A stretch of DNA of 64,000 bases from Bryum argenteum (Eukaryota; Streptophyta; Bryopsida; Bryales; Bryaceae), in contig CM073324.1 of assembly GCA_037043015.1 (NCBI GenBank), positions 13,847,013-13,911,012 on the forward strand, written 5' to 3'. Positions within the stretch are counted from its first letter, which is position 1; each line of letters starts with the position of its first letter. The notes beneath the pieces are model-generated. The model had not been told where the DNA came from. It ran no database searches and was given only the letters and a program-made list of their open reading frames with translations. The translations under genes were made by a program, and so were the position numbers. Below are positions 1,024 to 24,990 of this stretch, piece after piece.

Positions 1024-4000
1024 GCAGTGCTATGCTATGTAATATACTGTAGCATAACATGTATACAATGATATTCTGTCATTTCTATCTATAACAGCTT
1101 CTCAGTCACAAGCTTGTACTTTTCACATTTCCTTCCATTTTTCATGTTTTTGGGTTGCTGCTTCCTTTACGTGTTTTATTCTAGGGTTGAGATATCAATG
1201 TGATTTATTTTCGTCAAGTTGGAATGGAGACAGACTTAGTTTTTTCCCTTGCGGTCTATGATTGCCGTTAATGTGTATATATAATGACATTTTTATTTTC
1301 ATTAGACTCTGATTCATAATGGGTCACTTAAAAAGACAACAAATGAAGCCTGTAGAAAATCATTCCACAATGGATCAAGTTGATGGGTGGGTGGTCACAT
1401 AAGTAAGACTGTAGGAGGGCTAGGAGAGTTGCTTCCCTTGGTGATTTGGGATTGATGATTCTATTGGAGTTGCTTATATGGCACCATATTACTATAAGAT
1501 TTTGCTCGATTGAGAAAAGTTAGAGTCTTGTGAAAAATGAATGAAGTTAACTTTGGTGATAAACGAACAAGCAATGTGTGTATAGAGACAAAAAATAAAG
1601 AATAGTAGAAACACTCATGGTCAATTTTGTTGAGAATAAAGAGACACATGTTGAGCTCAAAACATTCTCAAATCATGAATCGACTCTTTGAACTTTAGAA
1701 TGAGACTCTTAAGAGTCCCAAGATAATGGATTTTTACTTGGTGTTCAACTCCCTCCCATCTATCGCTTTTCCTTGTCAGAATAATCTTGCAACATTCTCC
1801 TATATCTTGTTGCTTTCCTTTTCTCCACAAATTCCAATAACCATTTCAATAAATATAGAGACCTATTACATTGAGAATTATTTCTCTCCATAGGTTCTAG
1901 CTTCTTCTTGACTCTTCCATGCAAAGCGTCCCTTAGTGTAAAAAAGTGGGGAAAACTGGAAACCAACAAAATAGAAGGAGAAGGAGGAATGGGGGATAGG
2001 AGAGTAAATAGTTAGATGTATTCCCTCTTTACACTTAAATTTAAGATATCAACTTATACTTGTCCTCGTCTCTATCCAGTATCCACTTTATTGTACATGA
2101 TGTAAAAAATACTTAATATTCCAACTTTGGATTATTTGTTATTATGGCTCTTGACCAAGAGCCATGATCATGAAAATGGTCAGATTTTCTACATCACAAG
2201 TTCACAACTCATGAGGTGCAAGATCCATCATAAAACCCAAGAGGGATTTGGAAGGTCATGAATCGACACGTTTAGATGGTATAGAGTATAAGTCACCCAA
2301 TATTTCACAAGTTTTAAGGCTCCTTATGTTTTCATGTTTTTATTGAATGTAAATTTTCAATCACTTGAATCTGACTTTGTTGGCTAGACTTTCCTATATT
2401 AAACAAATATTTAATCATAATTTTGAATGGGCAATTCTAGTTTTGATTCTATTCCGTGTATAATTTATTAATTAGGCAACAAAACACATGCAGTAAGAGA
2501 TAATGGTCCTCAACTTATACTTCTATATAAGCACCACCAAAAACACTTTGGTTTTGCTTTCTCCAAACATAGAGTGAAAGGTTTTAACAAATCTTGTGTG
2601 ATGGATGAAAACCTAATGATCAGATGACAAAAAAATATGTACAAGGAAATCGTACTTAGTGGATGTTTGGGCGTTGGGCAATGGTAAGCTTGGGGTATCA
2701 CTTTTTGGACACACTAATTAGGTTATTTTTATTGAAAGCCTCCAAAGTTTGTCTAATTTAGTCATTTTAAGCAAGTAAAAAGACCCTAAAATAGAAAATA
2801 AAATATCATGCACCTCACTGAAATCAAATTATATATGCCTATAGATTTTCTTTTAGATTTTTTATTTTTTTTGGATCCATTCATAGATGAGGGAAAAAGT
2901 GTTGAATTTGGGGATTTGCAGGCATTATAGTGCACAATGAATTAATTTTTTTATTATTAAATAAATTATTTTGTATTCTATACAAGAAGATGTAGGTCAT
3001 ATTCAAAAATTATATTAAAATAAAAATGGTTGATATTCCATTTGCTTGCTTCTGTGGATTTTAGGTTATTGGGACATGACTTACTTTTTCAACTAAAAAA
3101 TCAAATAAAATTACTTCAAAATATTTTTTTTAATTTTTAATTTTTTTTCTTGATACATTATAAGTATAGACAACTAAAACTACATCTAATGAAGTCTTAT
3201 TGTATTACAGTTTAAAAATGGATATGTTTATCACACCAGCATAGAGTGCAATTGTTCATGGGACAACCTTTTTGGGTACCCCAACCAGACCATCACCCCG
3301 TTAGGGTTTAAGAGATACCTTAAGTTCTATATAGTCTTTTGCGATTGCGGTATCGAAGCGAAGTCATGCGCTCATGCTCCAGTTCTATTGAGGTAGGTCT
3401 AACAATCTGCATATCCTTTTGCATATCATTTCCATAAGAAGTTTTAGTGAGGTAATATTTGTTTCCGGTGGCCCGGTACTAACATTTGCGCTTCCTATAT
3501 TTTTTTCCTTTGTGTATAGGGTTTCGGATCTCAAGGCGTCTCGCTGTTTCGAAGCCACTTGTATCGTCATGGCACACTCTGAAGGTATCTTGTTCTTTCC
3601 TACAATGTGTGCAAGTTGCCAAACCAAGGGTTTTCAGTTTTCACTGAATTGGAGAAATTCCTAGTCTTAAAATGTATAAGATTTCTGCTTTGTTACGAGG
3701 GTGTCAGAACTAAACACATTTGCTCTTTAAATTTATTTTGTTTCTTGCCGTACTTTCTTGTTTCTGCTTTTTGTCCTACAAAGCAAAGAAAGCCGGCAAA
3801 CCTCGGAAAGCTAAGGTTTTCCGGAACTAAAGTCCTTCGTCAAGTCAACATTTGTTTAGCTAATGAGAAGAAAATTATACTATGCTTTGCAACCTAGTTC
3901 ATTCCACAAGCTTGTTGGATTAACCCTAAATTGAATCACAGTTATTCAAATGCTTTTGAGCCGATTCTTTGATCAAACTAATAAAAATAGTAATTAATGC

Positions 4001-4357
4001 ATTCTTCTCGCGCAAGTATTTTGTCAATACCTAAAATCAAAAAAACCGCAAACGAGATAGAGATATTTCAAACAAGCGATAGGTACTGTAAAGAAGTTCG
4101 TCAACCTTACTTTGAAACAATAGAATCACAAGAGCAACAATGACTTGAAAACCAATCTAATAACATATAATGCTTGTGTGATTTAGTTGTTTGCTTTGAT
4201 TCCACACTAGGTTCAAGCAATTCTATGTCATAAGTATCCCAAACTTTTCATACTTTGAAATTTGTTGCCGGTTTGCCCGGACCTGTGACCTAGATTGAGG
4301 TAAAAAGTAGTATGTTGCATTAATGAAAGGTCATTTGTGTACATTTGTGTGGCAGCA
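1024..4357. other. Spacer between gene X and F-box gene, unit A
   Basis: AT-rich non-coding DNA. Positions about 1690-2660 are almost identical to 19290-20260 of unit B, far closer than the flanking gene X exons. At 3360-3860 short stretches conserved with 20300-20830 may be 5' untranslated exons of the F-box gene, since the start codon at 4358 sits directly after a splice acceptor (ggcag). One transposon insertion is listed separately. No protein gene seen. Confidence 0.6.
2676..3298. mobile_element. TIR element, 623 bp, 4-bp target duplication CGTT
   Basis: Present in unit A and absent from unit B. The ends form imperfect inverted repeats: the left end begins GGGCAATGGTAAGCTTGGGG and the complement of the right end begins GGGTGATGGTCTGGTTGGGG. 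The element is bracketed by CGTT at 2672-2675 and 3299-3302. Unit B carries the same flanks joined over a single CGTT at 20281-20284. No transposase frame is visible, so it is a non-autonomous DNA transposon. The superfamily is not assigned; a 4-bp duplication with a GGG end is not typical of the common plant groups. Confidence 0.75.
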
Positions 4358-6031
4358 ATGAAAACGAACGATCCACAAGCTCTTTCCGAGCTTCCAATTG
4401 CTCTCGCCAATGTAACATCGAGGCCGAAGGAAGCTGGTGATCTCGAGCATGGGCAACAAGGCTCGCAAGAGATGGTCGAGTGTGCAGCTTTCATGGATGC
4501 AGTGTTCCTGAATCCCGCATTCTTGCAAAGTCTCAGCAGCCAAGAGATTCTCCTTCTTAAGTGTGTTTGCAGATCTTGGGCAGCTTGGTTTGCCGACTGT
4601 GCTGCCACCATGATCGCACATGCTCGCAGGCAAGAAGAAACCCGTGACTGGTACTTTCCTCTCTTTCACAAACCGCTCGAGTACGGAACGTATGGGTGGG
4701 GGAGGGGGATGTTGGACTCCACGCATTTGTCGGGCATGTGGCACGCAAGTGCAGAGTTCTCATCAGATCACAAGCTCTCCAACTTGCCTCGTATGACCTA
4801 CTTAGCAGGTGCGCTCAAGCGGTGCATTTGCAACGTTTGCCCGAACGATTCAGATCATTTAATAGTCGCTAGCGCAGGGGGCCTTCTCCTTCTCATGTTC
4901 GACCGGAAAACCGAGGATAACCAGTGGGGCAGTGGAGATCACACCAACGACTGCAAGGAGCACAACAGATATAGAAATCAGTTGTCATTGATTGTGACCA
5001 ACCTACTCACGCAGCAATTCAAAGCACTTCCGGCACTTCCGGAATTTGAAGGCTGTGGACCAAGAGATGAGTGGTTTGGTAACTGTGATCCTCCATACCT
5101 CAATATTGTGGTGGACGACAAAGCAAACACTTACAAAGTGCTTGTCTTTTGGTGTTCTAGCCACACTCTACCACATGTATTTAAACTTGCTGTGTACGAC
5201 TCCAAGTCCAACAAATGGCAAAGTGTGCATGAAATTCATGCACGCATGCAGCCTTTGCTTGGGATGTTAAGTAGAAGGCCTGGGGCTCCGTCACTCGTAC
5301 CTAGAAATGAAACCATGTACTGTGCAGTTGCTTACCTGTTCGGACGTTTGTACGTGGCGGATACTCGAGACACTACTCAGAGGGAGAAATCCATGAACGT
5401 GGACGTGTTCAGGGTTATAAGGTTGTACGAAGTCAACATCGAAACTGGGCAATTCAAACTGCAGAATGAGTTTCCTGTAGGGAGAGTACATATCCCTAGT
5501 GAGCATCGGGTGGTCCTTTTTCCTCGGCATGGTCCATACGGCGACCTCTGCAACTTTGAGCTGATAGAGTGCATGGGGCATTTGTATGCAGTGTTCCCAA
5601 CACGGATTGATGAGTTTCTATATCTGCCGAATAGCCGCGAAAACGTGGACGTGAAGCTAGGCTCGGGATATCAGCGCCTTCAGTTTTTTGTGTTTCAGCT
5701 GGACGGGATCGATGAAGGAGAAGGGCGTACACATGGGGTCCTTCGCATCGAGGCTCCCAGAATGAGGACCACTGAGGCTTCCGCTTTGTGCGACATGGAA
5801 ATCGAGATACTGATTGAGCGTAGTTATTTTTCTATTGGTGGCTGGCTTGGACCGATGAACAACTGGTTCGTTTGCACCGCTCAAGGCAGCGTCATTTGGC
5901 TGATGTTGGAGAATTACCTGCTCCACTACGACCTCCTGACAGGGGAATGCAAGACGGTGGTCCTGGAAGGCACACGCGAAAAGTTGACAAAAGGTCTTGT
6001 GTACCGGGCCAGCTTTCACATGAGGCCCTAA
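4358..6031 (+). CDS. F-box protein with C-terminal beta-propeller-like region
   Basis: Uninterrupted 557-aa frame. The N-terminus has a degenerate F-box at about residues 49-80 (FLQSLSSQEILLLKCVCRSW is the core), the part that binds SKP1 in SCF ubiquitin ligases. About 450 residues follow that resemble F-box/kelch-like proteins, with recurring strand motifs such as ASAGGLLLLMFD, FKLAVYDSKSNKWQ, MYCAVAYLFGRLYVAD and LLHYDLLTGECK. The substrate cannot be inferred. The ATG at 4358 follows a splice acceptor (ggcag at 4352-4356), suggesting an intron in the 5' leader. A paralogue at 21321-22992 is frameshifted, so this looks like the working copy. An in-frame GTG upstream is not needed. Confidence 0.85.
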   Translation: MKTNDPQALSELPIALANVTSRPKEAGDLEHGQQGSQEMVECAAFMDAVFLNPAFLQSLSSQEILLLKCVCRSWAAWFADCAATMIAHARRQEETRDWYFPLFHKPLEYGTYGWGRGMLDSTHLSGMWHASAEFSSDHKLSNLPRMTYLAGALKRCICNVCPNDSDHLIVASAGGLLLLMFDRKTEDNQWGSGDHTNDCKEHNRYRNQLSLIVTNLLTQQFKALPALPEFEGCGPRDEWFGNCDPPYLNIVVDDKANTYKVLVFWCSSHTLPHVFKLAVYDSKSNKWQSVHEIHARMQPLLGMLSRRPGAPSLVPRNETMYCAVAYLFGRLYVADTRDTTQREKSMNVDVFRVIRLYEVNIETGQFKLQNEFPVGRVHIPSEHRVVLFPRHGPYGDLCNFELIECMGHLYAVFPTRIDEFLYLPNSRENVDVKLGSGYQRLQFFVFQLDGIDEGEGRTHGVLRIEAPRMRTTEASALCDMEIEILIERSYFSIGGWLGPMNNWFVCTAQGSVIWLMLENYLLHYDLLTGECKTVVLEGTREKLTKGLVYRASFHMRP

Positions 6032-7244
6032 GTAGAGCGATGTATTGAATAGCATGCCAGCTTGTACAGGAAGTTCGAGGGTACGAGAACAATGTTCATT
6101 CTCATACGCACTTGTGTTGAGGACTTCACCTGTTATTACAAGCAATTCACTATTTTGTTGTTTATTTTGTTTACGATGTCATTGATGCAGTGCTTCTTTG
6201 ATTGACTACTTGAAGTAAGTATTTTTGTGGTAGACAATTAGAAGTTCTTATTCTAATTTTGACTTATTATGGTTTAGTTTGTGAACCATGGGAATGCGGG
6301 TATTAGTTTTTGGTAATGATGCATGTGGCCACCTAAAGTAATTCTAATGCATGGAAAGGCTCACAAAATACTTCACATACGTCAATATTACATGTCACAA
6401 ATTCCTCGACCATGCATGTAATTACAATTTAGCACATGCAATTGCAATTTAGATCATACATGTAATATTATATAAGTCGGATTCTATGTTATAAGTACTT
6501 GGGCCTAAAACTTGGGCATGAAAACTCTAACTGTATTTTTTATGTATAGTGAATTAAGTGAACACGATTTAATTAAAGACCAATTTGAATTTTTAAAAAC
6601 TCTAGGAGTTGACTCCTATGTGGCTTCCTAAGGTCTAGCTAGGGTGTGGTTAGGGGAGAGGATATTTGTTCTAATATTAATAAAAGGGAAAATTTCTTGC
6701 TAAGTATTTACAAACAAAATAGAAGAAAGAAGTAAAAAGAAATTTATGGAAAGAGAGGTAGTTAAGTAGAAATGGAGAATAGCCTTAATCAAGATATAAT
6801 CTCATTACAATCAAGACTTTTTTGATGGGCCCTTGAGTTCTCACTTTACATTACACCCAAAGGCCGTCATGTCAATTCAATGGCTTCTCGGTACCATATA
6901 GTCCATGGCCCAAGCAAAGTTTGGCCAAAGGCCTCTCATTTGAGTCATTTCTTACTATTGTTAAGAGTGCCTTAATTGCTTTTGGAAATTGCATTGTCGG
7001 AAGCAAAAAGAAATCTATTTTTGTCAAGGTAGGCACTTTTAAGCACCTTCTCAAATATCCTCCAACATTGACGTGGCCTTTGCTAGACCAAGCTTTGTTG
7101 TCTTTTTGTGTGTGTTCAATCCACAAAGCCATGCATTGTAGTTTTTATACACTTTTGGTCTAGTAAAATATGAGAAATGCCATTAATGTGTACCTTACAT
7201 CAACTTCTATCATTCATTAGTTGGATTAAACATATTAAACAACT
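6032..7244. other. Spacer downstream of F-box gene, unit A
   Basis: AT-rich non-coding DNA. Roughly 6310-6740 has no good match in unit B, whereas 6745-7240 realigns with about 23920-25165. No gene or RNA recognised. Confidence 0.5.
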
Positions 7245-7248
7245 TTAA

Positions 7249-8221
7249 CCCCTAAACGTCCCTAGTGTCGAAAAACGACATTTTGGATGAAGGGCAGAAA
7301 CTTTGAAGAGCCATAACTTCTTCATCCGGACTCCATTTTTAACGAAATCACTTGGGTTGGGTCCCAAATTAAGTCTAGTTTGTGTGGTACAATTTGCAGA
7401 CCCATACAATGAAGTATGAATTAATGGCATGCATTTTAGTGACAGCAGCTTTTGGTTTTGAGATTTCAAACATTGGGCATGTTTCACCATTGCAAGCCAA
7501 TTATGCAAAACCAAAAATAGTTTTTCATGAATTTTTTTTACATAAGTATGATCTTTAGATATATTCTAAAGACTTTCTAGTTGCAAGTTTTTCGATCCAA
7601 ATAACTTTGCTAGTGGATTTGCAATGATGTTTCTACAATGAAAAAAGTGAAAAAATGGATGATTTTTGAGGAGCTAGATCTCCTTCATCCACCGTTAGAT
7701 TTCGACTTTATTCTTTGGGATAGATTCCAATCATAGTCTATTTTAAGTGGTAGAAACCTTAACTTAATTGAAGATGTATTGAAGATAGGGCATGGATTTT
7801 AGTGCAAAGGGTCTAGTTTTGGACTATTTTTCCTTTGTAAATTTTGAGGCAGTTTTCACCATTGGAAGGCTACTATTTGAGCCAAGATATTTTTATGATG
7901 AATTTTTTTGGTACAAAAGTGTTTTTGAGATGAAGATGAACAACTTTCTAGTTGGTGATTTTTTGATTGCAAATTTCATGTTGGTAGTATTTTCACTTCA
8001 AAGTGGAAATGATGGTATTTTGTAGCCTGTTTTGCGCACTAATACATTACGATCTCCCAATCTATGAGGTCCCATGAGTCAAGTTTTGGCCCACATGATC
8101 TACTACAAGTCTATTATAAGTTTGTACGGTTAAGATCTGAATAGCTTATATTTATTTTCATCTATATCACTTTTTTTGAAAATGAGTTTTTGGCTAAAAA
8201 TACCCCAAGGACGTTTAGGGG
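7249..8221. mobile_element. TTAA-flanked TIR element (piggyBac-like, non-autonomous), 973 bp
   Basis: Perfect 13-bp terminal inverted repeats, CCCCTAAACGTCC, are flanked on both sides by TTAA (7245-7248 and 8222-8225). The paralogous site in unit B (25162-25165) has one TTAA and no element. A TTAA target with a short CCC-starting repeat is the hallmark of piggyBac; Kolobok also uses TTAA but usually has different ends. Internal short frames do not resemble a transposase, so it is non-autonomous. Confidence 0.75.
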
Positions 8222-8379
8222 TTAAGATACTCATTTTGGACCTCAGATTTTGAAAAGCTCTCTTTCCAATGGTCACCATCCAAAACCTTATAGTTAATTA
8301 ATAATCTTGTTGAATATGTCTAATCTATAAAAATTGACAAGCTATTATAGAAATAAATGAACGAACTTCAAAATCTTAA

Positions 8380-8963
8380 CCCCTAACTTTCCTTGAAGCC
8401 CAAAAGAAATTTTTGCACTTTCGGGCAGCCCAGATGAAGTAGTTAAGATTAATATTTTTGCCTAAATTTTTTATTGGGTGCTCCTTATACTGCAAAGTGT
8501 ATGTGGTAAAATTTGCAAAGTCAAATTTCAATTTTAAAACCTTCATGCAAAAATTTTAGGTTTCAAGTTGAAAAAGGGCAGCTTAAAAAAGTATTTTTTG
8601 AAAAAATTTCTTCTTGGAAATATGTTTATTACTAAATCACTACTCAAATTTCAAAGTCATTCAAGTCAGAAAGCTTACTAATTTTAGAAGGGCAGCCTCC
8701 AAAAATTTCATAAGTAAACCAATCTTTGTAATGCCCCAAAAAACTTAGGAGACAAAGTTTGGATGTTGCGATCTCTCACACGGTAAACATCCAACGGTCA
8801 AATTTTGGAACATCAAATAAAAATAGTCTTAGGTAGAAGATCTTACGGTTGGAAGTTTTAAAAAAGAAAACAAAATTTGTTTACACCCCCGTGAATGCAT
8901 AGAAGTAGGTAATTGCACTTTTGAGGTTTCAAGCTTCCAAAAAACACCAAGGAAAGTTAGGGG
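8380..8963. mobile_element. Second TTAA-flanked TIR element, 584 bp
   Basis: The 16-bp inverted ends CCCCTAACTTTCCTTG are flanked by TTAA at 8376-8379 and 8964-8967. The first seven bases match the neighbouring TTAA element at 7249-8221, but the inner repeat differs, so it is a related but separate subfamily. The paralogous site in unit B (about 25316-25319) reads TCAA and lacks the element. No coding capacity seen. Confidence 0.72.
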
Positions 8964-9455
8964 TTAAATTCAAAATTTTAAAGTCTTGAATAGTTTTACC
9001 AATTTTTAAAAATTATGTAAAACAAGGTTTTCACTTCATTAAGTGACCTGAAAGGACTAAGTCATCTAAGGGTTCAATATTATGAATTACAAAAAGAGTA
9101 TTTGACAGCATTTGGTAGCCTTTTATTAATATCCAATCACCACAAGAGCTAATTGATTGCCTTTTCAATTAGTCCCTACCATTACTCACTCATGATAAGA
9201 TAAACTTCTCACATCATGACTTTCACTATCCAATGGCTTACATTGAAGTAGGAAATATGTAGACAAAAAGTCAAAAACACAACCAAAAAAAGCTTATCAT
9301 AAGTATGAAGAGTTCCCTTTATCTCGGTAAGAGATTCTTTACATGAGGAGTCTAGGTGTACAACTGTACATGGAGCCAATGGAGAGCAAAAATCCTCTCA
9401 ACGCGATTGGTTTATTTTTTGAATTACAAATGCCCTCCTTTAACCCCATGCTCGG

Positions 9456-10051
9456 CTAGATTTTCCCAGGGTTGTTTTCTTCGACACATTTTCGGCAATG
9501 TCTGTCAAGTTGTTGTGTTTGTTGTGTTCGTCAAGTGTCTGGTACATTAAACAATTTGGATGAAATATGCTCAAATATCCAAGAACTGGTAAGGTACCCC
9601 TCGTCCCGACGGAGAAGCACTTTATATGGTATTTTAAAAAAGTATCCCGTGTCTACCATTTCCTCAAATGGTTTTTTTCTCCCTTTTTCTCTCTTTATTC
9701 ATATTTTTTTAATACATAAAAGAAGGTAGGTAGGTTGGTAAGTTCGTAGGTTAATAAGTTTGTAGGTTGGTAAGTTAGTAGGTTGGTAGGTTGGTACAAA
9801 GGTGGGTAGGAAGGATTGCCGAACAATATTTTATTATAGAAGTAAATACTAGCAATGTAACTGTCGTCCTGACATGAAAGCTCTTTATATGGTACTTTTA
9901 TAAAATTATCCCGTGTCTACCATTTCTTCATGTTATGTTTATTATTTTTATACAGTAAGGTACTCGTTGTCCCGACAGAGAAGCACTTTATATGGTATTT
10001 TAAAAAAGAATCTCGTATTTACCATTCCATAATAATTTTATATATGCCCGT

Positions 10052-10086
<35 letters not shown>

Positions 10087-10540
10087 GTAATTTTAATTTA
10101 ACTCATTCTATGTTACATAATCCATAAAACATAAAAGAAGATCGGTAGATAGGTTGGTTGGTACGTTGGTAGGAAGGTTTGGTGGCTAGGAAGGTTTCGT
10201 GAGTACGTAGATTGGTACGTTGGATAGGAAGGTTTGGTGGGTAGGTAGGTTTGGTGGGTAGGAAGGTTTGGTGAGTAGGTAGGTTGGTACGTTGGGTAAG
10301 AAGGTTTGGTGAGTAGTAAGGTTTAGTTGGTAGGAAGGTTTGGTAGGTAGGAAGGTCTGGTAGGTAGAAAGGATCACCGAACAGTATTATGTTATAGAAG
10401 TAGATGTGGGCATATTCTAGAATATTCAAAGTATATTTTAAGAATATGGTATATTCTCAAGGATCTGTTGTCTTGTATGTTGTATGTCTGACATGTTGTG
10501 TTCGACGTCCTGTCGAGTTTGTCGCACAAGACAATCCTGC
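9456..10540. repeat. Unit A-specific insert with dispersed 75-bp repeats and a GGTTGGTA minisatellite
   Basis: About 1.1 kb present only in unit A, between sequences that are adjacent in unit B near 25765-25795. It holds three diverged copies of a unit of about 75 bp (near 9590, 9855 and 9957) that share cactttatatggtattttaa and gtgtctaccattt. It also has two blocks of GGTTGGTA/GGAAGGTTTGG minisatellite (about 9724-9812 and 10140-10372) and a run of 27 T at 10056-10082. Long open frames across the minisatellite on the minus strand come from the stop-free repeat unit and are not genes. The mode of insertion is not clear. Confidence 0.65.
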
Positions 10541-11161
10541 ATTCCCCATGTAAAGCAAGACACCAATACTTCTTCAATTTGATTGAGGATGAACGAAGTA
10601 TGGTGGAGGATGAAAAGCATCCATCTAGCGGAGGATGAACTCATCGAAAAAGAGCATTCCGGAAGCGGGGGGCGTGACGAGCGAAGCGCCCGTGGAGGCA
10701 ACAAAACAACAGTCCGTGGAAACATTCCACTTGGTACTTCGCTCCCCTCCCAGCAGCAGCAGCATCTCATCACCTTTTCCTTTCCGAAACAATCAGTCAC
10801 ACCCTCACTTCTCTTGTTGTTACACTCCCCTCCACGAATTGCACTCAAACTTGCCATTTCCAGCACGCTCAATTCCGCCAGTTCCCCTTCTCCCAAAAGG
10901 TAACTTACATCTCTCACCCACAATTCCACAATCGTGCGCATCATTGGAGACCCATCTTCCAGAATCGTCTGTCGATCGAAAGCCCCGAAGAAACCCATTT
11001 CTTGCTTGAATGAAGCACGCTCCCGAATAATCAACCTACACCCCTGCAATGGATTTTGATGGTATCTTTCTAGGTTCCAAGAAGTAGTGATTCTTCGATT
11101 GTGATTACAGTGTGGTATTAGAATTGAGAAATCCTGGGTTGGGCGTTGTGCAGGGGACGCC

Positions 11162-12101
11162 ATGTGTCCAGCGACGAATCACACGGAGAGGCACTTCACG
11201 GCAGGGGAGATAGTGCGCGACATTGTGATCGGCATGAGCGATGGCCTCACGGTGCCATTCGCGTTGGCCGCGGGATTGTCAGGCGCATCGGCTCTCTCCT
11301 CCATCGTCGTCACTGCAGGTCTAGTTGAAGTTGCAGCTGGTTCCATTGCTATGGGCCTTGGCGGGTGAGAAAGAATGCTCCCACAATGCTGATCATTCTT
11401 ACTCTTACTAGGGTATAGCTAGGGTTCTGATTGAAATTGTATAATTCCTGCAGGTACCTTGCAGCACGAAGTGATGCTGATCATTATGAGAACGAGCGTA
11501 AGCGTGAAGAGGATGAAGTTGCTCGTGTGCCAGACACCGGTAAAACCTCGCATATTACTGCATTTGTGACAAGAATATAGAATTAGCAGAGATTCATCTT
11601 GCACAATGTATCGTCTTCATCAGTACCACTATTATTATCATAATTATGTAAAAAAAGAACGTAAGATATGTGTAGATGTTAACCTTGATTGTCATGGTGT
11701 ACCTCAGAGGCCGACTAGGTGGCTGAAATTCCGGCCAATTTCGGATTAGTGCCGAATGAATATTGGCCTGTTGTCGAAGCCTTGCGAAAACGTCCCGAAG
11801 CTTGGATCGACTTCATGATGAGGTACTGCTCCATCACGACCTTCGTCGAAGTCATTCTTAAAACCTTGTGCGTTCTTTCAGTAATGACACAAGATCTGGT
11901 CCCATATGATCAATTCCATTACCGTGATTTCGAAAACCATCTGCATGGATAATGTAGTGCTTTTTCAAGCTCGAAATCGCCAGTCTTTATAGGTCATACG
12001 TTCGATGTATAAAACCTCGAGTTTTGGCACGAACTTGCGCAAAAGATGTGGAACCATCCATCAATCAAGTTGGTCATTGCCGTAACCATGATCACGAAAA
12101 C
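11162..12101 (+). pseudogene. 5' half of VIT (vacuolar iron transporter), unit A
   Basis: Exon 1 (11162-11364), exon 2 (11454-11539) and exon 3 (from about 11707) match the intact VIT gene of unit B (26436-27851). They encode the first two membrane helices (MSDGLTVPFALAAGLSG) and part of the cytosolic metal-binding domain. Exon 3 carries a premature TAG where unit B has GAG (GAC TAG GTG versus GAC GAG GTG). The final exon with the last three helices is missing. In intron 3, at 12101, the sequence switches to a ycf23-like gene. This copy was born truncated at the duplication junction and cannot make a transporter. Confidence 0.85.
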
Positions 12102-12776
12102 CCACGTTGATATCGTTTGTGACCCTGAGCTTGTGAAACTGGCCACAAGTCTCACCGCTCTCCCGGTACGTGCTAACAATCCCAATTTATCTGAGTAGGG
12201 CTCCATTCCCTGTTTTGGAGTTGTTCGACTGACTTTGGCCCCGAAACTTGATGCTCGCCGATTGTGAACAAAATTGCATGTGGTGGTGGTGATCAGGTTT
12301 GTGTTTCATCAGTTGTTCCCGAAGACTTTGTTGCTGCAGCCGAAGCAGGTGCACACATGGTAAAATTCCTGCCAGAAACTCACGTGGTAGTGTAGACAAT
12401 TCTAGGAACTTTCTGTGGACCAACACCTATCAGACATTGTGTTAATAATTTATCTCACCTTGCAGATCGAACTTGGAAACTATGATACATTCTACGAATC
12501 TGGCCGTGTCTTCTCTGCTTCAGAAGTAAGCTTCAGATTTAATTTTCAGTCCCAATCCGTCACATTCGCATTCGCATTCGATCAGACAATCGCACTCTCT
12601 GTCATTGTTCCTCACACGCTGCCTCTTGACGAACAAGTAAGTCGCTGTTGCTACTTGACGTAGTAAAATAGGACTCTAGTGGATGCATTCAACCCCTATC
12701 CTTTGGCGAGAAAATTTTAGAAGGTTATATTATCCTGAGAATCATTGTTCTCTCTCGTCTCTTCGGAGACATCTGA

Positions 12777-12808
<32 letters not shown>

Positions 12809-13670
12809 GGCCCCTGCGCAAGGATGACACGCACAAATCGAGAAATGGTCCAAATTTTTTTTCTCTCCATTTTGCTGAATCTGGTGCAAATGTTGTTAAA
12901 TCAGGTGAGCTTGGCTGAGAAGCTGGAACTGCTGGGTGCCGACATCATCCAAACCGAAGGTGGCACGAGCGCATCGCCTTTGAGCCCCGGAATCCAAGGA
13001 CTCATCGAGAAGGTGAGCACGCAACGAACGTCGAATCGAGCTTTACCTTACATCATCGAAATTGTTGCATATTGATAAACCTCCTGTTCTTCTCTTTTCA
13101 AAAATGCAGGCCTCTCCCACGTTGGCTGCCGCATATGCCATCTCCAAGGCAGTGAGAATCCCTGTCATGTGCGCCTCCGGCCTGAGTGCTGTCACTGCTC
13201 CCATGGCCTGTGGCGCTGGCGCCGCTGGAGTGGTACGAACGACTCCTCTCCATATCTCAAACATCTAGCAACCTTACTGCCAACTCACAATGAAATACTT
13301 TATGTAAATGCACTAATGGAGGTGTGGGTTGAATAGTATGTTTGTTATCCAGCTTTTGCAAGAATACGCCATACTCTCTTCATTCCAATCACCGTAGAAT
13401 GCATCGATGCCATAGTAGTAACACTGGGCTTTGATCTTGAGTGTCCACATGAACACATTTGAGCAGGTTGTAACGTCTCAGTTATGTTTTTATAGTCAAG
13501 CGGGGTTGTGTGGGTGATAACAGGGGATTGGATCTGCGGTGAACAAGCTGAACGATCAGATTGGGATGATAGCTGCGGTGCGGAGCATTGCAGCTATCAT
13601 TGATTCTTTGGGCTTGCCCACCGAGGCTGCTTCCGTCACCACTAGCGGGGCTTCTGCAGTAGCGCAATAG
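12102..13670 (+). pseudogene. ycf23: 3' part of ycf23/DUF561 gene fused to truncated VIT
   Basis: Six or more short exons with good splice signals encode the C-terminal part of a Ycf23/DUF561 protein, a family known from cyanobacteria and plastids and also nuclear-encoded in plants; function unestablished. Exons: 12102-12165 (HVDIVCDPELVKLA), 12297-12359 (VPEDFVAAAEAGAHM), 12466-12525 (IELGNYDTFYESGRVF), one ending at 12636 (SVIVPHTLPLDEQ), 12905-13012 ([18 protein letters not shown]), 13110-13232 (IPVMCASGLSAVTAP) and 13524-13670 ending in TAG. The remaining exons are open. The N-terminal exons and promoter are absent because the fragment starts at the breakpoint inside VIT intron 3. It could be transcribed as a VIT-ycf23 chimera, but the VIT nonsense codon would prevent a fusion protein. 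Confidence 0.85.
12757..12858 (+). ncRNA. U6: U6 spliceosomal snRNA
   Basis: Matches the plant U6 snRNA along its whole length: 5' stem-loop GTCTCTTCGGAGAC, the ACAGAGA box (gatacagagaagatt), AGC triad region (agcatggcccctgcgcaagg) and 3' end (gaaatggtcc), followed by a run of eight T (12855-12862) as a Pol III terminator. From memory of the plant consensus, the 5' stem differs by a compensated pair (CCC/GGG to CTC/GAG), so the hairpin is kept. A TATA-like element (ttatatta) lies about 25-32 bases upstream; no clear plant USE (RTCCCACATCG) is seen. It lies within a 268-bp intron (12637-12904) of the ycf23 fragment, same strand. Confidence 0.9.
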
Positions 13671-14453
13671 AATAGCTTGTGAGTGGGGTGTTCTGGTTAG
13701 TCTGTGCCAGTGTAGGTGCTATCAGAGAATGGGCCATATCTGCTAAGCGGTAAAACACAAATATGTAGCTCCTCTATTTTACTAAGCGATGTTCCTGAGG
13801 GAAGCTCTGATTTGAGCTCCGGGAATATGAAGCAATTGTACACGTACATTTTTCTTTGTTCAATTTGTTCGCGATCGAAACCACGGGTGCGCTTCTGTTG
13901 TGAAGCTCGAACCTTGCACTCGTACTTCGGTTATGAAGCTGTGGCGCTGGAGACTCACTCTAACGTTCTCCGATGTTTAAGTTTTCAGGCCTGTATAGAG
14001 CTTGGTTCTTAGCTTAGGAACTAAGTTTTACATGGCCCAAAAACGGTTCAGACGGGGATAGGCTCCGCTGGATTTCTTTGTGAGATTAGCGTTCTTTACC
14101 AAAAGTTACCCGTTTCACTATTTCTCAACTCTTTCACTTTGGGTTGCCTTTGCAGTCGTCGCTTCAAGCCACCAATTTCACCAATTTCGAAAAATCCTTC
14201 CACTTGCAAGAAAGTTTGCATGCTCTCACATTTAGTGTTCTGTTTTGAAGATTAGTATTGTAACACTATGGTGACGTGTGAAAAATAGTGTCATGGATTG
14301 CAATTTATGTTTGTAATGCCAATCAACAACTCTTGCGTAGTGCTTTGATTGCTTGCATATTTGATGCTCATTGGTGATTAGCAAGAGACATTTGTGATCA
14401 CCAAAAGAATTGGAGAGCCCGTGTGTATTGTCGCACCTGACCAATTTCCTGTC

Positions 14454-14562
14454 GTGTTGCACTCTCATTGGTCTCTTTCTTGCAAGGTCTTGGTGTGTTG
14501 CACTCTCATTGGTCTCTTTCTTGCAAGGTCTTGGTGTGTTGCACTTTCATTGGCTTTCTTTG
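14454..14562. repeat. 41-bp tandem repeat, about 2.6 copies
   Basis: A unit starting gtgttgcactctcattggtc repeats at 14454, 14495 and 14536 (period 41). The third, partial copy is cut by the SINE whose left target duplication is 14551-14562. Confidence 0.85.
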
Positions 14563-14924
14563 AGGCACCACAAGCCTTGGCTTGGTGGTTAGGGCTTAGG
14601 CCCCCAATGAGGAGGTCGTGGGTTCTATTCCCCATGCCGGGCACGGTGCTCACCACTATAGTCCACCCAACTATTGTGGGGGGTCTTTGGACCTTGTTGT
14701 ATTGGTACCTCAAAGCCCTTTGGGGGGATACTATGTCAAGTATCTTCAAGGCAATTGTAACTAGGCTAGAAACTAGCGTAGTTATAGTGTCCACCCTCGA
14801 GAGGGGGAAGTAGTATTGTTCGAATTTCCCCTTGTCCGGTGGCCATCGGGATATTAGCATTACGAACGGACACTTCATTCACGCCGGCCCCTTTGAAAGG
14901 GACCGGAGTTTCTATCTATCTATC
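14563..14924 (+). mobile_element. tRNA-derived SINE, full length, 362 bp
   Basis: The head has Pol III promoter boxes: A box near 14578 (ttggcttggtggtta) and B box near 14632 (gtgggttctattcccc), spaced as in a tRNA. A body of about 260 bp follows, ending in a short TCTA simple-repeat tail (tttctatctatctatc). The 12-bp target duplication tggctttctttg flanks it at 14551-14562 and 14925-14936. A 5'-truncated copy of the same family is at 44095-44188 on the other strand. The tail type suggests mobilisation by a LINE that recognises a short repeat rather than poly-A. Confidence 0.85.
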
Positions 14925-15939
14925 TGGCTTTCTTTGTGTGCCTAATTCTAGAATTTTCTCACAATAATCTAGGGCTGCCTGTCTCACTCCCAGAGGGCGT
15001 ATTAGGGTTATTCATGGCCATGTGTAATTTGGCTTACAACTCACAGTAAACATCAATAATGAAATATTGAAAATTTTCATTATTTACTCCTATTGACAGT
15101 AGTGTTGCAATTAGCATTTAGTGTAACAAATTAGGAGAATTTATTACGTTTGATGTTAATAATTGTGAATAATATACTATACACTACTATGGAGGCAAAA
15201 ATTGAGCCCACTTTGGAAATATGTTGTGAAATAGAGCCACGTATTGATTTTGCAAGCATTGGAGGTTTACAAACTCATGAGGAGGCTTGCAATAGGCGGA
15301 GGTTCACAAATACTCAACAATTTTATGAAAATTATGAGGGATTTGGGCCCCTAGGGACCCGGGTCAAACTAAGACTTGCACTTTAACATGCATTGAATTG
15401 AAAAGGGACCAAAAGAGTACATGAGGAAAGTGCTCAAATATACATCTCTTAGGCTTGTAGCATTTGAAACAAAGTTATCCGAAAGTAATGCAACACTCAA
15501 GTGGTGGACGTGAGATGATTATAAATGATAGTTCATGTGGCTCTAACTTACATGAAGCATGGAATTTGCACCAGTCGTGCACAAGGTTAAAATTATTATG
15601 TTTTCAAAGTGGTAACCATTCATGATCCTTTTGTCCTTTTGAGCCCATTAATTGATACGTGAGTGAAAATAAATATATCATTCTTCACAACAAAAGTCAA
15701 GGTTTTACCCGTTACACGTTTTCAGATTTTAATGATGGGCACTTCAAAGGACCATGAAAAAATATCTTGCACGGTTTCTCTATTGGAGGCTTATACACCG
15801 TGGAGAAATGTTTACAATTTTTCCATTTCGAAGATAATTTTCCAGAAAATGGATCCATTTTAGGGCTGCCCACCTTAGAACAACAGTAATCGATTGGACG
15901 CAAGTAGTTCCAAAATGAAAAGCATCAACCAAGCACTTA

Positions 15940-16887
15940 GGGCCGGTTTACATTTGGGCCGGATGGAGAGCCAGCCCGAACTCTTCCAATTTCAACCAAT
16001 AGGATCGCTCGATTCTCTAAAATCCGGCCCAAGGGCTTTACATTTGGGGCCGGCCGGAAGCACAACTCATCCTACATGTCACCTTAGGTGGCATGGTTTT
16101 GGCGCCAAACCATCCGGTTCCAAGGGAGCAATTGGGACGAGGTTTTGGTGGCCCAATTCCCCATCTAGGGCCGGATGGGGCTCCATCGTTGGATCAACCG
16201 TCAATAACTTGAAGAGTTTTTTTACTTGTTTTCGTTTTGTTTTTTATTCATTTATTTTTAAGTGCCCCTATTCATACAAACTTTGCGGCCTTCCCGTTTC
16301 GTTTTTTCTTATTTTTCATTTTTTTATTTTTTATTTTTTTATTTTTTTTATTTTTTTTTAAAAAATTTGTTTTTGTTTTTTATGTGCCCCTCTTCATACA
16401 GACCTTGTAGCCTTCTGGTTTTGCTTTTATTTTTGTTTAATTTTTCTTTAATTCTATGTGCCCCTATTCATACAGACTTTGCGGCCTTCCCGATTTTATT
16501 TGTAATTTTTTTTAGTTTTATTTTTTTCAATTAATATACCCCTGTTCATGTAGACTTTGCTGCCTTCATGTTTGAGAGTTTTTTTTTAGAGAAAAATAAT
16601 GAAAAGAAATTGAAAGAGATGAAAGTTTTGAGTAATTTTCAATCACGCTTTGAGAATCCAAGAACACTGGAATTGCAAATTTGGCTCCAAAATTAGGCTT
16701 TAAGGCTTTACATTACTTAGGGCTGAAGTGCTTAATTAGAAATTTGTCCCTCAATCCGGCCCCAAGGCTTTATATTTCTTGGGGTTGGATGGAAGAATTT
16801 GAAGAATTTGGGGCCGGATTTGGGAACAGATTGAAGCCAAATCCGACCAACCTTCCATCCGGCCCCAGACCCAATGTAAACCGGACC
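15940..16887. mobile_element. TIR element with GGGCCGGTTTACA ends, 948 bp
   Basis: Left end GGGCCGGTTTACATTTGGGC and complement of the right end GGTCCGGTTTACATTGGGTC form imperfect inverted repeats that continue into ggccggatgg. Flanking trinucleotides are TTA (left) and TAA (right), so a PIF/Harbinger-type 3-bp target is possible but not proven. Inside are four imperfect copies of a unit with tgcccctattcatacagact, near 16262, 16385, 16459 and 16537, separated by T-rich DNA. No transposase. The same end sequence is found on the larger element at 44241-45821. Confidence 0.7.
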
Positions 16888-17445
16888 TAAGACCGATTCA
16901 AATCCCTTCTCAGAGCGCCTATTCTCGAAAGGATTAGATTCCTAGAACCCTAGATTCCTTGGTAATAATGAGGCATTGATTTGAGACTGAAGCCTATAAA
17001 GCAAGCTCTGACACAGAGGGCTTCACCATTCTTGTTTTGTGCAGGTTTCCGGGTGGGGCTGCTCAGGGAGGCGCGTTCGGCTAGGGAGCTCGATCCAGTC
17101 CCCAGCGACTTACCTGTGTCCATCTCCCCAGTAAGTGATCACGGACGTAATCCCCGAACCTCTAATTGCGGCCATATTGGGATTCTCGGGGTCCAGGTAG
17201 TGGAAATTCTGCTCCTTGACACAATTCGGTATGTTTCTTTCTCTGGTAGCTAGGTCGATCTGATCAAGCATTACATCTGTAAGCTAGCATTTCTTTTGTT
17301 TTCTCCATGTTGAGGAAAACTAGACAGAAACTGCTGACAATGGATCCTGAGAAAGACTTGCTTCGTGCAAGGTACAAATTATTATGCATTGGTGTCCGTT
17401 CTACGGGGCCATGCATACATACAGAGGTAGCGATGCAAATTACAG
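16888..17445 (+). other. Possible upstream exons of gene X, unit B
   Basis: An exon-like stretch at 17045-17130 has an acceptor (gcag) and a donor (gtaagt) and reads FRVGLLREARSARELDP in one frame. Another conserved block ends at a donor after 17371 (ATGGATCCTGAGAAAGAC region). The frames could not be joined confidently to the exon at 17446, so these are recorded as candidates. The match to window position 1 starts at about 17280. Confidence 0.35.
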
Positions 17446-18213
17446 GATTTAGATATCTAGACGAAGCTCTTGGAGCTCCGTTGATCGCCTCAGGGATTCT
17501 TCTTGGATTGCTCGAAAAAAGCATCCGCAACCTATTTACTAGATGGGAGCTCTTTCTCTTAAATCCCTCCCGACCGGCAATTCTTCTTGGAGTACATGGT
17601 AATTCTATTTCCTCTTGTGACGTGAAAAACGTCAGGCGTTTTGAGTCCTTTCTGGTGGAAGGTCTAGGGAATCATTTGGGATTTCTACTTTCTGTTTTTT
17701 CTCTGCCCATTCTCCGAAAGCGTCTATCAGGACATTCTTCTGATAGTGAACAAGCTTTCACTAATATCGAGTTATATACGACCTTTCGCCCACACAGAAA
17801 GGAGTGCAGAATTCAAATGAATTGATTTATAGCATGCTTCAGGTTTCTCGATGAAGAACTATCGACAGTTGATCTCGGCGATGATGAACGAGGAAGCGAC
17901 TGTAGAACCGACTAAGCCGCTAACAGAGAGGGAATACGATCTGTACCGCTTGAGCGTCCTGACGGGAAAACCAGAACTGGAGATGGCGAGAGAAATGCGG
18001 AGCCGCATGCTCGCGCTGGCGAAAGAGGAGCACAAGCCTGAGCCTCAGGCTCAGATCTCCCCAGCAGCTGTAACTGTAATAGCAATTGTCGATGATTCGG
18101 AATGTGACGACACTCCATTCATGTTCCTGGGATGCTGCCCCATCCACCCACTGTGTGCCATGATCGTAAACTCCATGCGACACATTCGGTTCCTGCTGAT
18201 GTCTCGACATTAG
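17446..18213 (+). CDS. Gene X, unit B copy (unidentified, 3' exons)
   Basis: Two exons join in phase: 17446-17598 (GFRYLDEALGAPLIASGILL) and 17843-18213 (FSMKNYRQLISAMMNEEA, then LTEREYDLYRLSVLTGKPEL), ending at TAG/stop 18213. The first exon has a hydrophobic stretch (LGAPLIASGILLGLL) that could be a membrane or buried helix. The last is charged, with a Lys/Glu-rich helix, then a short Cys-containing tail. I do not recognise the family. Upstream exons are uncertain (see 16888-17445). Unlike the unit A copy, no frame break is seen here. Confidence 0.45.
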
Positions 18214-21200
18214 TCACTGGTCCGGAACTACTCGACACTACTGGGCCAAGTACGGTACCGTTAGCTTCATGCTTCCTGAGCACTCTCTCAGCACTGCTAT
18301 GCTATCATGTAACATACTGTACCATACATGTATATCATGAATTCATGATATCCTGTCATTTCTATCTCTGAAAGCTCCTCAGTCACAAGCTTGTATTTTT
18401 CACATTTCCTTCCATTTTTCATGTTTCTGGGTTGCTGCTTCCTTTACGTGTCTTATTCCAGGGTTGACATATCAATGTGATTTATTGTCTTCAACCTAGA
18501 ATGAAGACAATAGTGTTTTACCTTGTTGTGTATGATTGCCGTTTAGTGTGTATATGTAATGACATTTTTATTTTCTTTAGACTCTGATCAATAACGGGTC
18601 ACTCAAAAAAACAACAAACGATACTTGTAGAAAGTCATTCCACAATAGATCAAGTGGATGGGTGGGTGGTCATATAGGTAGGAGGGCTACGAGAGTTGCT
18701 ACCTTTGGTGATTTGGGATGAATGACTCTATTAGAAATGTTGATATGGCACCATGTTACTATTAATTTCTGCTTGATTGAGAAAAGTTAGAGTCTTGTGA
18801 AAAATGAATGAAGTCTGGTGATAAATGAACAAGCAATGTGTGCATGGAGACAACAAATAAAGAATAGTGAAAACACTCATGATAACCCCAATTTTGTTAA
18901 AATGGCATTATTCCGGTAAAATGGCACACCAGTCCTCAACTTTCTGAACTGTAGCTCAAAAACCATGTGATATAACTGAATCTTAAGGTGATATTAGGGA
19001 AATTGAGTGACAATGTATATAAAGAAGTGATATCACAAAAAAAATTGTGATATTACAGAATATACCATTTTATATGAGCACAAATATAAGATCTAGTGTG
19101 ACAAAGTGGCACATGGCATAGTGCCATTTTAACGGAATTGGGGCTTGAACAATTTTGTTGAACTGAGATTTTCTCGTCAATTGAGGCTCTCAGCCCAATC
19201 CAATCTCCTTACGTGCCATTTGATGCCACATGTTGAGAATAAATTAAAGAGACACATGTTGAGCTCAAAACATTCTCAAATCATGAATCGACTCTTTGAA
19301 CTTTAGAATGAGACTCTTAAGAGTCCCAAGATAACGGATTTTTACTTGGTGTTCAACTCCCTCCCATCTATCACTTTTCCTTGTCAGAATATTCTTGCCA
19401 CATTCTCCTCTCTCTTGTTGCTTTCCTTTTCTCCACAAATTCCAATAACCATTTCAATAAATATAGAGACCTATTACATTGAGAATTATTTCTCTCCATA
19501 GGTTCTAGCTTCTTCTTGACTCTTCCATGCAAAGCGTCCCTTAGTGTAAAAAAGTGGGGAAAACTGGAAACCAACAAAATAGAAGGAGAAGGAGGAATGG
19601 GGGATAGGAGAGTAAATAGTTAGATGTATTCCCTCTTTACACTTAAATTTAAGATATCAACTTATACTTGTCCTCGTCTCTATCCAGTATCCACTTTATT
19701 GTACATGATGTAAAAAATACTTAATATTCCAACTTTGGATTATTTGTTATTATGGCTCTTGACCAAGAGCCATGATCATGAAAATGGTCAGATTTTCTAC
19801 ATCACAAGTTCACAACTCATGAGGTGCAAGATCCATCATAAAACCCAAGAGGGATTTGGAAGGTCATGAATCGACACGTTTAGATGGTATAGAGTATAAG
19901 TCACCCAATATTTCACAAGTTTTAAGGCTCCTTATGTTTTCATGTTTTTATTGAATGTAAATTTTCAATCACTTGAATCTGACTTTGTTGGCTAGACTTT
20001 CCTATATTAAACAAATATTTAATCATAATTTTGAATGGGCAATTCTAGTTTTGATTCTATTCCGTGTATAATTTATTAATTAGGCAACAAAACACATGCA
20101 GTAAGAGATAATGGTCCTCAACTTATACTTCTATATAAGCACCACCAAAAACACTTTGGTTTTGCTTTGCCCAAACATAGAGTGAAAGGTTTTTAACAAA
20201 TCTTGTGTGATGGATGAAAACCTAATGATAACATGACAAAAAACTCTGTACAAGGAAATCGTACTTAGTGGATGCTTGGGCGTTAGGGTTTAAGAGATAC
20301 CTTAAGCTCTATGTAGTCTTTTGCGATTGCGGTATCAAAGCAAAGTCATGCTCCAGTTCTTTTGAGGTAGGTCTAACAATCTGCATATCCTTTTGCATAT
20401 CATTTCCATGAGAAGTTTTAGTGAGGTAATATTTGTTTCCGGTGCTAACATTTGCGCTTCCTATATTTTTTTCCTTTGTGTATAGGGTTTCGGATCTCAA
20501 GGTGTCTCGCTTTTTCAAAGCGACTTGTATCGTCATGGCACACTCTGAAGGTATCTCGTTCTTTCCTACAAAGTGTGCAAGTTGCCAAACCAAGGGTTTT
20601 GAGTTTTCACTGAATTGGAGAAATTCCTTGTCATAAAATGTATAAGATTTCTGCTATGTTACGAGGGTGTCAGAACTAAACACATTTGCTCTTTAAATTT
20701 ATTTTGTTTCTTGCCATACTTTCTTGTTTCCGCTTTTTGTCCTACAAAGCAACAAATGCAGGTAAACCTCGGAAAGCTAAGGTTTTCTGGGACTAAAGTC
20801 CTTCGTCAAGTCAACGTTTGTTTAACTAATGAGTAGAAAAATATACTATTTTTTGCAGCCTAGTTCATTCCACGAGCTTGTTAGATGAGCCCTAAATTGA
20901 ATCAAAGTTTTCCAAATGCTTTTCAGCGGGTTATTTGATCAAACTAAGAAAAATAGTAATTAATGCATTCTTCTCGCGCAAGTATTTTATCAATACCTAA
21001 AATCAAAAAACCGCGAACAAGATAGAGATATTTCAAACAAGCGATAGGTACTGTAAAGAAGTTCGTCAACCTTACTCTGAAACAATAGAATTACAAGAGC
21101 AACAATGACTTGAAAACCAATCTAATAATGTTTGTGTGATTTAGCTGGTTGCTTTGATTCCACACTAGGTTCAAGCAATTTTATGTCATAAGTATCCCAA

Positions 21201-21320
21201 ACTTTTCATACTTTGAAATTTGTTGCCGGTTTGCCCTTTATGACCTGTGACCTAGATTGAGGTAAAAAGTAGCATGTTTGCGTTAATAAAAGGTCATTTG
21301 TGTACATTTGTGTGGCAGCA
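18214..21320. other. Spacer between gene X and F-box copy, unit B
   Basis: Counterpart of 1024-4357. It carries one TIR element not found in unit A and an additional block of about 72 bp (about 19165-19240) bounded by TTGA on both sides, absent from unit A. No gene recognised apart from possible leader exons near 20490-20550. Confidence 0.5.
18884..19146. mobile_element. TIR element with ACCCCAATT..GTTAAAATGGCA ends, 263 bp
   Basis: The left end AACCCCAATTTTGTTAAAAT and complement of the right end AAGCCCCAATTCCGTTAAAA are inverted repeats of about 24 bp. The element is absent from the paralogous position in unit A (near 1622), where actcatgg joins tcaattttg directly. The target duplication could not be resolved. 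The ends resemble those of the element at 59055-59489, so they appear to be one family. Non-autonomous. Confidence 0.65.
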
Positions 21321-22992
21321 ATGAAAACGAACGATCCACAAGCTCTTTCCGAGCTTCCAATTGCTCTCGCCAATGTAACATTGAGGCCGAAGGAAGCTGA
21401 CAATCTCGAGCATGGGCAACAAGTTTTGCAAGAAATGGTCGAGTGTGCAGCTTTCATGGACGCAGTGTTCCTGAATCCCGCATTCTTGCAAAGTCTCAAC
21501 AGCCAAGAGATTCTCCTTCTTAAGTGTGTTTGCAGATCTTGGGCAGCTTGGTTTGCCGACGGTGCTGCCACCATGATCGCACATGCTCGCAGGCAAGACG
21601 AAACCCGTGACTGGTACTTTCCTCTCTTTCACAAACCGCTCCAATACGGAACGTATGGGTTGGGGATGGGGATGTTGGACTCCACGCATTTGTCGGGCAT
21701 GTGGCATGCAAGTGCAGAGTTCTCATCAGACCGCAAGCTCTCCAACTTGCCTCGTATGACCTACTTAGCAGGTGCGCTCAAGCGGTGCATTTGCAACGTT
21801 TGCCCGAACGCTTCAGGTCATTTCATAGTCGCTAGCGCAGGGGGCCTTCTCCTTCTCATGTTCGACCAGGAAACCGAGGATAACCAGTGGGGCAGTGGAG
21901 ATCACACCAACGACTGCAAGGAGCACAACAGATATAGAAATCAGTTGTCATTGATTGTGACCAACCCACTCACGCAGCAATTCAAAGCACTTCCGGCACT
22001 TCCGGAATTTGAAGGCTGTGGACCAAGAGACGAGTGGTTTGGTAACTGTGATCCTCCATACCTCAATATTGTGGTGGACGACAAAGCAAACACTTACAAA
22101 GTGCTTGTCTTTTGGTGTTCTAGCCACACTCTACCACATGTATTTAAACTTGCTGTGTACGACTCCAAGTCCAACAAATGGCAAAGTGTGCATGAAATTC
22201 ATGCACGCATGCAGCCTTTGCTTGGGATGTTAAGTAGAAGGCCTGGGGCTCCGTCACTCGTACCTAGAAATGAAACCATGTACTGTGCAGTTGCTTACCT
22301 GTTCGGACGTTTGTACGTGGCGGATACTCGAGACGCTACTCAGAGGGAGAAATCCATGAACGTGGACGTGTTCAGGGTTATAAGGTTGTACGAAGTCAAC
22401 ATCGAAACTGGGCAATTCAAACTGCAGAATGAGTTTCCTGTAGGGAGAGTACATATCCCTAGTGAGCATCGGGATGGTCTAAGCGGCGACCTCTGCAACT
22501 TCGAGCTGGTAGAGAGCTGGTAGAGTGCATGGGGCATTTGTATGCAGTGTTCCCAGCACGGCATGACGAGTTTTTATATCTGCCGAATAGCCGCGAAAAG
22601 AACATATGGCAAAACGTGGACGTGAAGCTACGCTTGGGATATCGGCGCCTTCAGTTTTTTGTGTTTCAGCTGGACGGGATCGATGAAGGAGAAGGGCGTA
22701 CACATGGGGTCCTTCGCATCGAGGCTCCCAGAATGAGGACCACTGCGGCTTCCGCTTTGGGCAACATGGAAATCGATATAATGATAGAGCGTGGTTATTA
22801 TTTTAGTGGTGGCCGATGGACAACTGGTTCGTTTGCACCGCTCAAGGCAGCGTCATTTGGCTGATGTTGGAGAATTACCTGCTCCACTACGACCTCCTGA
22901 CAGGGGAATGCAAGACGGAGGTCCTGGAAGGCACAAGCGAAAAGTTGACAAGAGGTCTTGTGTACCGGGCAAGCTTTCACATGAAGCCCTAG
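21321..22992 (+). pseudogene. F-box gene, unit B copy, frameshifted
   Basis: Paralogue of the F-box gene at 4358-6031. The first 400 codons are open and carry the F-box. The frame then breaks near 22500, where gagctggtag is duplicated in tandem (the duplicate ends in an in-frame TAG). A second frame break lies near 22805-22815, where about ten bases present in unit A (GGCTTGGACC region) are missing. The downstream sequence still matches to the normal stop at 22990-22992. A truncated protein with F-box and half the propeller could be made, but loss of the C-terminal third argues for a pseudogene. Confidence 0.85.
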
Positions 22993-23007
22993 AGCAATGT
23001 GGGGAAT

Positions 23008-24986: not shown

Positions 24987-24990
24987 CACC

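Follow-up and report, generated by a model that had tools for sequence, protein, structure and literature searches.

A predicted VIT-ycf23 pseudogene at the junction of a head-to-tail duplication in Bryum argenteum

The window, a stretch of 64,000 nucleotides of Bryum argenteum DNA, covers bases 13847013-13911012 of contig 4 (28.7 Mb) in a genome of 258.8 Mb assembled in 25 contigs. An rbcL gene on contig C12 matches solved Rubisco large chains of plant type along its full length. We added the 40 kb lying to the left of the window, giving a 104-kb stretch in all; positions in the added sequence are negative, with 0 being the base that precedes the window. Self-alignment of this stretch revealed two head-to-tail copies of a unit of ~16 kb, with both ends of the unit inside genes and one novel junction between the copies. 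Unit A occupies -4022 to 12101 on the plus strand (1 to 12101 within the window), and its start, at C4:13842990 in the genome, lies within exon 3 of an intact ycf23 gene. Unit B follows on the same strand from 12102 to 27336, its alignment beginning at 12099. A 701-base probe for the junction matched three places in the genome, these being the junction itself, a site 4 kb left of the window, and the VIT gene of unit B. Chance is excluded as the source of the paired alignments because the blast E-values were 0.0, both for the pairs between units and for the pairs between the chimera described below and the upstream ycf23.

The earlier note, drawn up from the window alone, had predicted a complete plus-strand ycf23 gene left of the window, and such a gene was found at -4469 to -2352. 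It has nine exons and an open frame of 310 aa, and its product carries a full-length match to DUF561 (PF04481, 293 bits, profile positions 8-237 of 243). The spacer that follows was also predicted to resemble the one behind the chimera, and the two are indeed homologous (-1294 to -518 with 15197 to 15938, and -514 to -131 with 16891 to 17262). Within the gene and its 3' side, -4022 to -3555 aligns with 12099 to 12557 of the chimera at 91% identity and -3451 to -1494 with 12585 to 14534 at 87%. No ycf23 locus was found in the genome besides the intact copy and the chimera. At the other outer end, an intact VIT gene of four exons lies at 26436 to 27851 on the plus strand, spanning the right end of the duplication. 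Its open frame of 233 aa matches PF01988 over residues 18-228 (257 bits, profile positions 1-213 of 214) and aligns with the VIT1 structure 6iu3 in the PDB over residues 7-232 (E = 4.3e-104), which identifies the predicted product as a member of the VIT family with a full-length domain. VIT matches in the genome comprised this intact copy, the chimera, and only two distant others (30-32% identity).

Between the end genes, each unit holds a plus-strand gene that the earlier note had called an F-box gene. The copy in unit A (4361 to 6031) is intact, with 564 open codons and 556 aa from its ATG, and the copy in unit B (21324 to 22523) is broken, ending after 407 codons, with an 18-bp deletion and 11 extra bp that shift the frame. 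The order given in that note, with full ycf23 and VIT on the outside, the chimera between them and an F-box gene in each unit, is the one we observe, apart from the F-box label. The F-box label did not find confirmation, as the 556-aa product matched no Pfam family at E-values up to 5, in a search whose filters may drop weak matches; we therefore use the term F-box-like. Frames related to this gene are common, with 80 matching places in the genome, including pieces and both copies described here. For each of the three protein genes examined, one copy is thus intact, namely the ycf23 spanning the left end of unit A, the F-box-like gene within unit A, and the VIT spanning the right end of unit B. 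Two further open frames, at 571-1023 (150 aa) and 17851-18213 (120 aa), are alike between the units and may be an unnamed gene or its remnant; neither matched a Pfam family at E-values up to 0.01, nor did 571-1023 at E-values up to 5.

At the junction, the sequence aaccatgatcacgaaaac ends at 12101 in unit A and at 27336 in unit B, which bears out the claim that the two units agree as far as these positions in VIT intron 3. The blast pair ends there as well (10556-12101 with 25822-27336, 92%). Beyond this point unit A enters ycf23 in mid-gene, also as had been described, and its match to the upstream ycf23 begins at 12099. A three-way comparison of the junction, the intact VIT intron 3 and the intact ycf23 exon 3 accounts for this overlap: VIT intron 3 contributes sequence as far as GAAAAC, ycf23 exon 3 contributes sequence from AACCCACG onward, and the AAC at 12099 to 12101 (plus strand) is common to both. 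This 3-bp microhomology argues weakly for a particular repair pathway, since microhomology of at least 3 bp has a chance of ~5% at a random join. When 600 bases around each parental breakpoint were compared, the similarity score was 17, against a median of 14 and a 95% value of 18 for shuffled sequence; by this measure the parental breakpoints are no more alike than shuffled sequence. No Ns occur in the 104 kb. The observed junction and copy structure are confirmed, and the reading of them as a tandem duplication is supported.

Sequence past the two outer ends bears on the same reading. No second copy of the 8 kb beyond either end was found in the 104-kb stretch, apart from scattered repeats (up to 833 bp, 69-77%). 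Genome-wide, the 1061 bases left of the ycf23 breakpoint matched only themselves, and the 1264 bases right of the VIT breakpoint gave 29 further matches, all of them to one short repeat (query positions 796-953, 70-81%), so that no full second copy of the 1.1-1.3 kb beyond either end was found in the 25 contigs. The tested sequence past both ends is thus single-copy, and 12101/12102 stands, as the earlier note held, as the sole join found that departs from the presumed ancestral order.

The chimera at this join runs from 11162, the A of the VIT start codon, to 13670, the final base of the ycf23 stop codon. Its VIT part comprises exons 1-3 (11162-11364, 11454-11539 and 11708-11822, plus strand), modeled with AG/GT intron borders, and retains the splice sites. 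Codon 100 of this part, at 11716 to 11718, is an in-frame TAG where the intact VIT has GAG. The ycf23 part (12102 to 13670, plus strand) begins with the rest of exon 3, which has no acceptor, and continues through exons 4-9; exon 6 lacks its original acceptor together with its first 39 coding bases, and the frame of exons 4-9 stays open if exon 6 is entered via another acceptor. By combining four exon sets of the VIT part with six ycf23 acceptors, 24 canonical splice combinations were assembled, and none of them enters ycf23 in frame. Retention of intron 3 leads to the same stop at codon 100, and skipping of exon 2 leaves a fitting phase but shifts the reading frame of exon 3, which then stops at codon 74. 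No open reading frame across the junction was found in any of these combinations. A fusion protein from canonical splicing was accordingly ruled out as a candidate product, and an in-frame VIT-ycf23 protein is very unlikely on these models. We consider the fusion, as predicted from its sequence, to be a dead gene, that is, a pseudogene; a chimeric transcript may exist.

Changes in the protein sequence of both halves favor the pseudogene reading. Four amino acids differ between the units in the VIT half; at three of these sites unit A departs from the residue common to unit B and 6iu3, and at the remaining one 6iu3 agrees with neither unit. The DUF561 match reaches 204.5 bits for the ycf23 half of the chimera, versus 248.2 for the corresponding stretch of the intact gene. 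On the other side, the dN/dS ratio was 0.24 for the ycf23 half (7 nonsynonymous and 10 synonymous changes) and 0.42 for the VIT half (4 nonsynonymous and 3 synonymous, the stop codon left out). These ratios might suggest that the chimera is under constraint, though we attribute them to constraint on the intact copies together with gene conversion, for reasons that follow from the divergence between the units.

This divergence is patchy. Jukes-Cantor-corrected divergence was 0.14 in the spacer (135/1068 sites), 0.11 in the ycf23 3' flank (82/784), 0.12 across 1-1627 (170/1567) and 0.10 in VIT intron 3 (23/247). In ycf23 introns 3 to 8 the differences were 9/128, 6/106, 17/59 (poorly aligned), 21/268, 3/97 and 9/291, respectively, and in VIT they were 1/89 in intron 1, 6/151 in intron 2 and 18/606 in the 5' flank. 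The least-alike part, 6300-10500 against 23400-25800 of the window, aligns as scattered pieces of 76-84% identity with large indels. At the other extreme, a noncoding tract of 756 bp at 1805 to 2560 is identical to 19413 to 20168 in unit B. Protein constraint is an unlikely cause of this identity because the longest open frame in the tract has 69 codons; a constraint of some other kind may be at work. For a shuffle test, 1534 poorly aligned columns out of 12768 were dropped, which left 11234 columns with 817 mismatches. Across 1000 shuffles no identical run was longer than 173, versus the 756 observed; as shuffling presumes an even rate, this result alone shows unevenness. Mismatches per 250 kept columns ranged from 0 to 47. 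Shorter identical runs occur in the F-box-like gene (303), in ycf23 (225) and in VIT (212 and 202). Since the exact noncoding run adjoins sequence that is ~11% diverged, the 756-bp tract is probably a gene-conversion tract, and the patchy divergence as a whole seems best explained by later gene conversion between the units. Local identity was discarded as a date for the duplication owing to the identical tracts, and the poorly aligning ~6.3 to 10.5 kb of unit A (76-84% pieces) also makes it difficult to assign one age to the unit in its entirety.

Two inserts in unit B were noted that are absent from unit A. A 374-bp insert at 14552-14936 has an 11-bp direct repeat, GGCTTTCTTTG, at its ends and a short CTAT repeat at its terminus, and looks like a SINE. 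A 949-bp insert at 15939-16887 has imperfect terminal inverted repeats and is MITE-like.

Intron 6 of ycf23 contains a U6 snRNA gene in both units. In the chimera it lies at 12757 to 12859 on the plus strand and in the intact gene at L007:6721-6823, each scoring 113.4 bits against Rfam RF00026 (gathering score 44). The two copies differ at 0 of 103 sites, versus 21 of 165 in the remainder of intron 6 (Fisher p = 2.7e-5). The genome holds at least 24 U6 matches above the cut-off among 48 scored candidates, and promoter matrices were built from 13 distinct promoters of other copies. The upstream element scored 9.4 for the copy in intact ycf23 and 15.6 for the copy in the chimera, and the TATA element 10.9 and 8.2, respectively; at most 0.06% of positions in the 104 kb score as high. 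When each of the 13 promoters was scored with itself left out, values ranged from -6.1 to 20.2 for the upstream element and from -12.9 to 16.0 for TATA, with scores below zero in 1/13 and 5/13 cases, respectively, so the nested copies fall inside these ranges, neither best nor worst. Both nested copies have the U6 sequence, the 5' stem and the external promoter elements (upstream element and TATA). They look like real genes and, judged by these features, may both be active. A literature search for U6 genes lying within introns of plant genes returned no papers.

Some variation among the U6 copies was also observed. The 5' stem of the nested copies has a U-A pair where some other copies in the genome have C-G. 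The interval C10:10352630-10443127 contains seven U6 matches in 91 kb, five of which have a different 5' stem. Elsewhere, at C9:2589000-2590998, two U6 genes on opposite strands are separated by ~1.8 kb and preceded by the same 75 bases.

We propose, with high confidence, that the locus arose by a single head-to-tail duplication of ~16 kb, in which a break in VIT intron 3 was joined to a break in ycf23 exon 3, and that decay and conversion followed. The breaks would have been joined through the 3-bp microhomology, by end joining or by replication template switching. One intact ycf23 and one intact VIT would have been left on the outside, with a fusion of the VIT 5' half and the ycf23 3' half in between; the chimera sits between two intact genes because both ends of the duplication fell inside genes running in the same direction. 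The units would then have drifted apart, gained separate insertions and exchanged tracts by gene conversion, with the three protein genes returning to one intact copy each and the intronic U6 staying intact in both units.

The same final order, with VIT and ycf23 as the end genes, would be reached if a larger tandem duplication had produced two full VIT-ycf23 arrays and a deletion running from the first VIT into the second ycf23 had then removed the 3' portion of the former and the 5' portion of the latter. This needs two events, and within the 104 kb no duplicated remnant was found of the 8 kb to the left of the breakpoint in ycf23 or of the 8 kb to the right of that in VIT, making it improbable. 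An assembly artefact, with two haplotypes of a single-copy region set in tandem, is very improbable, even though following one haplotype to VIT intron 3 and the other from ycf23 exon 3 gives an identical layout and the copies differ at many sites and by large indels. The join shares only 3 bp and has no Ns, and such an overlap is too little for an overlap-based assembler; the 25 contigs yielded no complete duplicate of the 1.1-1.3 kb past either end; and mismatches inside the unit vary from 0 to 47 per 250 kept columns. The moss tissue that was sequenced would probably also be haploid.

Two other readings can be given even less weight than an assembly artefact. That the chimera is an expressed and selected new gene draws on its dN/dS ratios of 0.24 and 0.42 and on the divergence of just 0-3% in the VIT 5' flank, exons 1-2 and ycf23 exons 7-8. 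Against this, the TAG lies in VIT exon 3, 0/24 combinations are in frame, intron 3 retention stops at codon 100, and the introns in the same tracts are equally low (VIT introns 1 and 2 at 1/89 and 6/151, ycf23 introns 7 and 8 together at 12/388). Low intron divergence there is explained by conversion and not by protein selection; the dN/dS argument was set aside for this reason, and selection on the chimera is highly improbable. An origin by unequal crossing-over, with repeats in VIT intron 3 and in ycf23 as partners, would be the least probable of all. Such crossing-over is a common route for expanding existing tandem arrays, but the parental breakpoints have no homology past 3 bp, and the repeat-mediated form was ruled out by this absence (score 17; shuffled 95% 18).

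The single head-to-tail duplication that we favor has parallels in known systems. The human RCCX module has the order STK19-C4A-CYP21A1P-TNXA-STK19B-C4B-CYP21A2-TNXB, in which STK19B is reduced to 914 bases from the 3' end of the gene (PMC8362596). As that account describes it, a full gene lies on each outside and truncated copies of both end genes meet at the inner junction, as here; one interior gene is dead in one unit, and conversion occurs between units (PMC8362596). At the present locus the F-box-like gene is likewise broken in one unit, and conversion is the probable cause of the identical tracts. TNX lies on the opposite strand in RCCX, whereas the end genes here are co-directional, which is why the present join is a 5'-to-3' gene fusion. 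RCCX copy number also varies in populations. Its genes are unrelated to those here, and the likeness is one of layout only. Tandem duplications whose ends disregard gene borders are an established source of chimeras. In D. yakuba, 76 chimeras from tandem duplications are reported in 15 lines, each, like ours, joining the 5' end of one gene to the 3' end of another through one tandem duplication (PMC5460883). Those are described as population variants, 24 of the 76 with raised expression over at least half of the exons of the duplicated segment, whereas the present chimera is widely diverged and carries a stop codon (PMC5460883). An identical 2.7-kb fragment in the Arabidopsis OAK kinase tandem cluster was read as recent gene conversion, much as we read the 756-bp tract, although that cluster consists of related kinase genes and is not a fusion of two unrelated ones (PMC3136440). 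Literature listings on ycf23, and on chimera-forming tandem duplications and microhomology in plants, gave nothing on this locus.

The locus is thus a new and well-preserved example of a known event, not a new kind. It offers a base-resolved case of one duplication yielding a gene chimera that then decayed, in which a spare U6 has been kept and local identity, given the conversion-like tracts, has no value as a clock. For annotators, a VIT-ycf23 model at this place should be taken as a pseudogene, and a gene predictor may report a false fusion. It is also conceivable, though we think it rather unlikely, that the junction locus is kept as more than debris: it would contain a further functional U6 gene and, through conversion, would both be renewed by and endanger the genome's only close VIT and ycf23 genes. 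If so, conversion could carry the TAG of the chimera over to VIT, which would make the locus a natural plant analogue of the CYP21/TNX pseudogene hazard, and in a possibly haploid-dominant plant such a conversion would show at once.
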